Virus record (IMG/VR): IMGVR_UViG_3300025133_000045
Location: 1 to 64,000 of that record
From: a virus
Strand: one strand, 5' to 3'
DNA: 64,000 nt
Part shown: piece by piece, positions 2,378 through 3,425 of the stretch
Position numbering within the stretch: the stretch's first letter is position 1
Layout of the letters: every line of letters starts with the position of its first letter
Notes under the pieces: generated by a model
Seen by the model: only the letters and a program-made list of their open reading frames with translations
What the model was told of the DNA's origin: nothing
The model's database searches: none
Program-made: the position numbers and the translations under genes

Positions 2378-2584
2378 TTAGGGGGGACGGCCTCCTGAGC
2401 GGCCCTTTTTCTGAGCCGCCTTTATCTGTTCTTGTTCTGACTTTAACTGTTTTTCTAACCTCTTTAGGAACCACATGCGAACTTGCACTGGGAGATTGTA
2501 GGCTTCATAGAAGCTCCATCCTCCGTGATACTTGAGAAGGAAAAACATCTCATATACGCTCTCAATATATTTATCACTTAGTCC
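2378..2584 (-). CDS. Frameshifted C-terminal extension of the gp26-type tail assembly chaperone
   Basis: This 68-codon frame lies one base off the preceding gp26-type gene and overlaps its end. It opens GLSDKYIESVYEMFF and continues KYHGGWSFYEAYNLP, ending SGGRPP with stop TAA at 2378. The first ATG in the frame is at 2548, but it has no good ribosome site, and the 12 codons before it look like normal helical protein sequence. I therefore infer expression mainly as a gp26-extension fusion made by slippage on the seven-T run at 2585-2591. I recall similar short proteins beside gp26 in marine T4-like phages. Tail assembly chaperones of many phages are made as short and frameshifted long forms. 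Independent initiation at 2548 (56 aa product) is the alternative. Confidence 0.7.
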   Translation of the reverse strand, partial: GLSDKYIESVYEMFFLLKYHGGWSFYEAYNLPVQVRMWFLKRLEKQLKSEQEQIKAAQKKGRSGGRPP

Positions 2585-3425
2585 AAAAAAATTTGACTGT
2601 CAGGGGCACCTCCATTTCGGTCTCAAACCCGCATGAGGAGCAGGAGAAAGCCTGCGTCAAATCAATATTTGGCATAATCTTTCGATAAGCCTGACGAATA
2701 TACCGTGTATCCAGCGCTGGAGCGTTGGAAATGAATGCTTCTCGCATATGGGAATTGGTATCGCCGTTGACAGAGAGAATCAGTCTCTTCAACTGGTCTG
2801 TAAGGGCCGTTTCGGAAAGATTCTTGCGCCTTCGGTTGGCTGTAAGTTGTGCGAGATACCTTTCATCAATACCGTACATCGGTCGTATTTCTACATCGAC
2901 CCCTAATCTGGGGGTTTTGATAATAAATGTCCCATCAGTGGTCTTGGTAACATCAAAGTCCCCATGATCCTCCCCGTGGTTAATCGTGCCCTTCTCCAAG
3001 TCAAAGGAATAGTTCACATTAGCAGCGCAACTGGGACAGTTTACGCCAACTTCATAATCCTTGCCATATCCACTGATACGTGCTGCAACGATTACGGCGT
3101 TCTTGTCTCCCACCACCAACTCATCAACCTTGATCTTGGGATCAAGAATGATGCTCTGAAGCATCCTATCAATTGCAATTCCTTTCTTCAGAAGGGACTG
3201 AGAGGTTAGGATATCCTCTTCTTTCGCCGTCATAAAACGAATTTCAAGTTGCTCACACCCATGCAAAGGGTGATTCTCTGGATACAGAGTCCCCTTGGAT
3301 GGCAATTCCACAAACATGGTTGGTGTTGCAAACGCCAACATGGGATTGGGAGGAGCCTCACTGATAGGAGGGCTCGCTGCCTGCGCGGTTGGAGCCCCCA
3401 AGCGGTCTCCACTATTTCTAGCCAT
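2574..3425 (-). CDS. 26: gp26-type baseplate hub assembly / tail chaperone protein
   Basis: 283 aa, close in layout to the T4 baseplate hub assembly protein family (Pfam T4_baseplate, PF12322) as I recall it. The N-terminal 30 residues are Ala/Pro-rich. Then comes LPSKGTLYPENHPL, a hallmark of the family, followed by EIRFMTAKEEDILTS. There are two Cys pairs: CPSC near residue 135 and CSSC close to the C terminus, followed by GFETEMEVPL, so metal binding is likely. The ATG at 3425 has an AGAGG site five bases upstream. The gene lies between the tail tube and tape measure genes. In T4, gp26 is needed for hub assembly and is not abundant in the virion, which fits a chaperone. The 3' end carries the slippery T run described separately. 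Confidence 0.85.
   Translation of the reverse strand: MARNSGDRLGAPTAQAASPPISEAPPNPMLAFATPTMFVELPSKGTLYPENHPLHGCEQLEIRFMTAKEEDILTSQSLLKKGIAIDRMLQSIILDPKIKVDELVVGDKNAVIVAARISGYGKDYEVGVNCPSCAANVNYSFDLEKGTINHGEDHGDFDVTKTTDGTFIIKTPRLGVDVEIRPMYGIDERYLAQLTANRRRKNLSETALTDQLKRLILSVNGDTNSHMREAFISNAPALDTRYIRQAYRKIMPNIDLTQAFSCSSCGFETEMEVPLTVKFFWTK
2585..2594 (-). promoter_or_regulatory. Putative programmed frameshift site, AAA followed by seven T
   Basis: In the zero frame the codons read AAA-TTT-TTT-TGG, with seven consecutive T, and a TGA stop follows three codons later at 2574. The downstream frame is entered if the ribosome moves +1 (TTT-TTT, skip T, GGA) or -2 (one extra Phe). A tRNA-Phe in the P site can re-pair fully with TTT after either move. 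The downstream frame has a TGA just upstream, so it is open only across this short overlap, which is the classic geometry of a recoding site. Confidence 0.55.

Follow-up and report, generated by a model that had tools for sequence, protein, structure and literature searches.

The window analyzed here is the whole 64,000-nucleotide stretch given above (positions 1 to 64,000 of the IMG/VR virus record IMGVR_UViG_3300025133_000045), and the genes described below all lie on its minus strand. The tail sheath gene (7229-4146; 1027 aa) is followed by a gp19-like tail tube gene (4089-3475; phrog_4542, E 2e-20) and then by a gp26-type gene of 283 aa (3425-2574), which would be the short form of a tail assembly chaperone (TAC-N or 'G'; see below). 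The gp26-type ORF carries two CxxC pairs, and its product matched PF12322 (T4_baseplate) over residues 39-281 (E 1.3e-13, 51.6 bits with a cut-off of 24.5) as well as phrog_150 (E 4e-16). Next come one small ORF of 113 residues (2279-1938) and a large ORF (1926-1) that runs off the window. Neither of the two matched any family; the large ORF is assigned to the tape-measure position by its location alone, which is that of the annotated tape measure genes in three relatives (L081, L083 and L084), and in the same three relatives the order sheath, tube, gp26, extension and tape measure was found. A DNA-level search of isolate phages with the window gave no match.

The gp26-type gene ends with the TGA codon at 2576-2574, which is preceded in the zero frame by AAA (2594-2592), TTT (2591-2589), TTT (2588-2586), TGG (2585-2583), ACT (2582-2580) and AAG (2579-2577). 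A second frame, in +1 relative to the gene, opens just 5' of the T run; it reads TTT GGA CTA AGT GAT AAA and then meets no stop until the TAA at 2380-2378. The earliest ATG of this frame is that at 2548. An earlier note on this DNA had described the end of the gp26-type gene at 2574, the overlapping frame reaching 2378 and the position of this ATG, and all of its coordinates were correct. It had also proposed that a +1 or -2 slip on the T run produces a fusion of 350 residues. The predicted shift site is TTT TTT TGG (2591-2583), with TTT at 2588-2586 as the P-site codon, T2585 as the skipped base and decoding resumed at GGA (2584-2582); the +1-frame extension (TAC-C or 'T', gp51-like, see below) comprises 68 aa (2584-2378). 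A fusion made by a +1 slip would have 348 residues (280 + 68), and one made by a -2 slip 349. The frameshift itself, in the +1 direction, has stood up to the analysis, whereas the -2 option and the length of 350 residues have not.

Conservation of the extension and of the shift site

Eighty relatives were taken from IMG/VR; after removal of duplicates and of the disrupted L078, 71 distinct gp26-type genes were left, with identities ranging from 43 to 100%. (In L078 the gp26 frame is broken mid-gene and the extension is intact, probably as the result of an assembly error.) In all relatives of this set whose contig reaches the extension, the latter was found in the +1 frame. The part of the extension that lies 3' of the gp26 stop showed a median dN/dS of 0.16, with 0.20 for gp26 itself, and by this measure the extension, too, is under purifying selection; both other frames of the extension DNA contained stops in 65 of the 65 sequences tested. 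The open frame of a single sequence proves little, because one of the two alternative frames stays free of stops for 65 codons in 2.4% of shuffled extension DNAs; it is conservation in relatives that makes the frame real. For a single metagenomic contig with an error-prone homopolymer, one could suspect faulty sequencing or assembly, or a single gene that has been broken. But some 150 distinct metagenomic sequences share the frame relation, as do isolate genomes, and the extension is under selection; this explanation, already refuted by the relatives, deserves practically no credence.

The residues encoded before ATG 2548 (GLSDKYIESVYE), singled out in the earlier note as protein-like, are among the best conserved in the extension, and ATG 2548 itself lies inside the conserved core and is missing from most relatives. 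In the stretch that runs from where the +1 frame opens to 12 codons beyond the site, 22 of the 71 genes lack ATG, GTG and TTG alike, and 49 lack ATG. These figures bear on the possibility that the extension is made alone, as a short protein, by re-initiation or from its own start, in the way that cyanophage gp51 is annotated. ATG 2548 could serve as such a start in the window, and TAATG or TGATG is found at the gp26 stop in five members of the -1 group described below (L178, L179, L182, L184 and L186). However, no start precedes the conserved core in the 22 genes just mentioned, nor is there a start codon for the gp51 frame in 23 of 71 genes of the cyanophage group; moreover, the wobble base of the P-site codon is constrained (see below), although no translation in the +1 frame is expected upstream of that base. 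We regard independent synthesis of the extension as very improbable. Relatives whose second frame has an ATG and a ribosome site of its own had been named in the earlier note among the findings that would speak against a frameshift; instead, many relatives were without any start codon. The note had also suggested comparing the slip run and the 12 codons that precede ATG 2548, and both were conserved among relatives, which favours frameshifting.

All 71 distinct gp26-type genes end in TTY/TTT-YTT-TGG, the site being TTT TTT TGG in 62, TTC TTT TGG in six and TTT CTT TGG in three. At its third position, the P-site codon has T in 71 of 71 genes, as compared with 71% TTT among the Phe codons elsewhere in these genes. 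This constraint points to a shift, because up to the shift the base is decoded in the zero frame alone, in which TTT and TTC both specify Phe. The slip geometry is of the prfB type, a YUU codon in the P site followed by the U of the A-site codon, in all 71 genes. In a second group, related to Flavobacterium phage immuto, only the +1 frame is open in 66 of 67 sequences, and 29 of the 67 have TTT CTT TGG, which corresponds to the prfB slip from CUU to UUU; TTT CTA TGG, also in this group, and TTT CTA TTC, in the jumbo contig LR756508, fit a +1 slip from UUU to UUC. The third group (L280) has TTC TTT TGG in 13 of 16 sequences. In L280-L288, a +1-frame stop is found three codons upstream of the site and a zero-frame stop a few codons downstream; in the interval between these two stops, no codon other than UUU-U is able to re-pair. 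In Streptococcus phage GXN1 the site is TTC TTT CGT.

A -2 slip, in which TTT TTT T would re-pair two bases back, is workable on the window's own site and leads into the same frame, and -2 shifting reportedly occurs in the tail genes of phage Mu. However, TTC TTT TGG (six of the 71 genes and 13 of 16 sequences in the L280 group) and the GXN1 site would require UUU to pair on UCU, and TTT CTA TGG and TTT CTA TTC do not fit either, whereas a +1 slip fits all of the variants; we give the -2 slip only a slight probability. Slippage of the RNA polymerase on the T run, seven residues long in the window, would be another way to reach the extension, but it is hardly credible at all, as groups with three to four consecutive T (TTC TTTTGG, TTTCTTTGG) keep the same frame, and a base other than T is maintained in front of the run (GAC, 96% versus 35%), so that the run is not lengthened. 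As far as can be read from the site variants, which exclude both the -2 slip and transcriptional slippage, the slip direction is +1. The hallmarks of canonical -1 frameshifting (an X XXY YYZ heptamer, a -1 frame and a downstream stem) were not seen in the window group, where the extension is in +1, and the RNA that follows the site in the +1 group showed no structure (mean z near 0).

Upstream of the site, 18 nt before the P-site codon, lies a Shine-Dalgarno-like GGAGGTG (2613-2607, minus strand), which is synonymously constrained in the window's group (GAG codon in 60 of 60, versus 38% elsewhere). This element may stimulate the shift; a spacing of 18 nt is not typical of +1 or -1 stimulators. 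In Escherichia coli prfB, a +1 frameshift takes place at CUU UGA, with a Shine-Dalgarno sequence about 3 nt upstream. The predicted event in the window is like that of prfB in that the peptidyl-tRNA would leave CUU (or UUU) for the UUU one base ahead, the A-site codon beginning with U, and unlike it in that the A-site codon is UGG (Trp), not the stop codon UGA, and in that the Shine-Dalgarno-like element is 18 nt upstream.

The +1 layout, mostly unannotated, was also found in Flavobacterium phage immuto, Microcystis phage Mel-JY01, Listeria phage LIS04, Bacillus phage SP-15, Streptococcus phage GXN1 and the jumbo contig LR756508, as well as in phage-like contigs binned with Flavobacteriales. 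Two members of the LR756508 gp26 group (L290 and L295) have the overlapping open frame in -1, not in +1, with no obvious heptamer.

The extension as a gp51 homologue, its -1 relatives and the T4 genes

When searched as a single sequence, the extension gave a weak match to phrog_634, 'baseplate hub assembly catalyst' (E 0.045), and, in the family search, another weak match to DUF6760 (E 0.087), for which no literature was found. A profile-profile comparison (hhalign) of the extension with the gp51 family gave 92.7% and an E value of 4e-7, and on the strength of this alignment the extension is homologous to gp51. The gp51 of Synechococcus phage S-H9-2 is a 60-residue ORF directly after gp26. In the cyanophage-type genes, of which 71 distinct ones were compared, T TTT TTC is found one codon before the gp26 stop in 71 of 71, and gp51 is in the -1 frame in all that could be tested. 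A hairpin is predicted 3' of the site, with a mean z of about -2.4 in 50-nt windows and values near zero elsewhere; single sequences of the region fold strongly, covariation is weak, and RNAalifold returned no consensus structure for it. The cyanophage relatives thus display the heptamer, the -1 frame and the downstream stem of canonical -1 frameshifting.

The same T TTT TTC is present in Pseudomonas phage Milchi, Stenotrophomonas phage Yut2, Vibrio phages V05 and VH7D, Aeromonas phage AsFcp_1, Agrobacterium phages OLIVR6 and Atu_ph07, Pseudomonas phage Paride, P-HM1 and S-CRM01, and Rhizobium phage P10VF has the variant heptamer T TTT TTG. Together, the sequences with gp51 in -1 (L088, L093-L172 and L177-L186) point to the production of gp51 through a -1 frameshift at T TTT TTC (T TTT TTG in P10VF). 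Where gp51 is annotated in these sequences, it is given as an ORF of its own, in some cases with an internal ATG (P-HM1) or a TAATG start; in the others it has no annotation. In two Ackermannviridae, Kuttervirus FEC14 (L183) and Vibrio phage 1.244.A (L187), a gp51-like frame follows gp26 in -1, with no slippery heptamer; the FEC14 junction is also without a nearby ATG, GTG or TTG.

In T4, both gp26 and gp51 match PF12322 (5e-63 and 4e-52, respectively), and the two match each other (E 2e-6). T4 gp51 alone continues into the extension, its C-terminus matching the gp51 family with 98.1% and an E value of 8e-14. Judged by these matches, T4 gp51 is a gp26 paralogue, that is, a gp26-like domain, with the extension added, and T4 gp26 is the short form; neither this arrangement nor the gp51 homology of the extension had been foreseen in the earlier note. 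PF12322 genes number two in T4 and one in every other phage record with a match. The 3' end of T4 gp26 reads GAG TTC TTT GAG, and the slip site is gone.

Proposed function and relation to known systems

The gene is, very probably, a two-form tail assembly chaperone gene of a T4-related myovirus, the long form of which would be made by +1 frameshifting. The frame, the shift site, the slip direction, selection on the extension, its homology to gp51 and the location of the gene between the tube gene and the tape-measure position can be read from the sequences; that ribosomes shift in infected cells, how often they do so and what the products do is our inference, as follows. The majority of ribosomes would halt at TGA 2576, releasing the 283-residue, gp26-like short form. 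In a minority, with TTT (2588-2586) reached and UGG occupying the A site, the peptidyl-tRNA-Phe (tRNA-Leu in the CUU variants) would slip one base forward onto the overlapping UUU, and resumption at GGA would give the long form of 348 residues, which has a gp51-like three-helix domain at its end. Most likely, the product is a tail assembly chaperone pair equivalent to G/GT of phage lambda, to which it fits in its position between tube and tape measure, its small helical extension and its two-form design. By analogy with lambda, the tape measure protein would be covered by many copies of the short form and a few of the long one, whose extension would bring in tube subunits. In T4, assembly requires gp51, and the particle does not contain it (PMC3004832).

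The gp26 part and the extension were modelled separately with AlphaFold2 (pLDDT 87.8 for each), and three helices were predicted for the extension. Among solved structures, the HK97 tail assembly chaperone (2ob9) was second-ranked for the gp26 model and had the highest probability (0.54), with an E value of 0.76 and a TM of 0.48 on target, a match that has no statistical weight alone. A sequence search of solved structures gave nothing relevant.

Lambda G/GT is produced by a -1 frameshift on GGGAAAG. The lambda gpG/gpGT gene and the gene in the window are alike in lying between tube and tape measure, in a frameshift close to the 3' end and in a short helical extension (Levin 1993; Xu 2004, 2013, as cited in PMC5009743); no similarity to the lambda chaperone was seen in our family searches. 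According to Atkins et al. (2016; PMC5009743), long-tailed phages 'except T4' show wide conservation of G-T frameshifting. The G-T frameshift of the archaeal myovirus HSTV-2 is 'very likely +1' (PMC5009743), and so resembles that of the window in being a +1 shift in a tail chaperone, in a single archaeal virus that is compared here by description. Listeria phage PSA has +1 frameshifts in its capsid and tail-shaft genes (PMC5009743), also structural genes, but at a proline codon, unlike the window. In Bacillus phage 0305phi8-36, gp143 and gp144 are a chaperone pair of two paralogous genes (PMC2147016); compared by description and not by sequence, this is a two-gene form like T4 gp26/gp51, with no frameshift.

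For tail chaperones of T4-like phages, it has been reported that a short gene is accompanied by a fused one in some phages, and that -1 sites of the poly-T type are known (Vladimirov, Gautam and Davidson, 2022, Virology 566:9-15, as cited in PMC10885494 and PMC12846349); the citing papers leave the genes unnamed, and on our reading they are gp26 and gp51. The suggestion of the earlier note that T4-like phages have a two-form chaperone beside the tape measure holds, but had thus already been published, and the idea that T4 gp26 and gp51 as short and long chaperones are a new finding was dropped in view of these citations. Going by the citing papers, the family assignment and the T4 gene pair are known, and the -1 site probably is. 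The T4-like gp26/gp51 genes and those of the window's family have in common PF12322, a gp51-type C-terminal part, and a short and a long form. They differ in the origin of the long form, which comes from a paralogous second gene in T4, from the -1 site T TTT TTC in other T4-like phages and from a +1 shift in the window's family. No report of a +1 form in the gp26/gp51 family was found, with Vladimirov et al. (2022) represented by the papers that cite it, and the conserved +1 form appears to be new.

It is likely, then, that a large, mostly uncultured set of T4-related myoviruses, together with Flavobacterium, Microcystis, Bacillus, Listeria and Streptococcus isolates, makes its gp26/gp51 chaperone through a conserved, prfB-like +1 frameshift, and that one homologous pair exists in three interchangeable forms (+1, -1 with a hairpin, and duplication in T4), the direction of the shift having switched in evolution while the two-product logic was kept. 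To our knowledge, programmed frameshifting in the +1 direction is uncommon in bacteria and phages; that of the window is conserved in many environmental phages and several isolates, almost wholly unannotated. Because close homologues rely on -1 frameshifting or on a duplicated gene, the family offers a natural experiment in how a two-product design persists under changing decoding mechanisms. The essential and poorly understood T4 hub factors gp26 and gp51 would also gain a testable role, as the short and the long tail chaperone.

Minor observations concern the surroundings of the gene. A strong terminator-like hairpin (2329-2363; AGACCGGAGG..CCTCCGGTCT followed by a T-rich run) lies directly 3' of the extension stop and 5' of the 113-residue ORF. 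The tail sheath, at 1027 aa, is about twice as long as the general sheath profile (phrog_23, 496 positions), and so carries large insertions.
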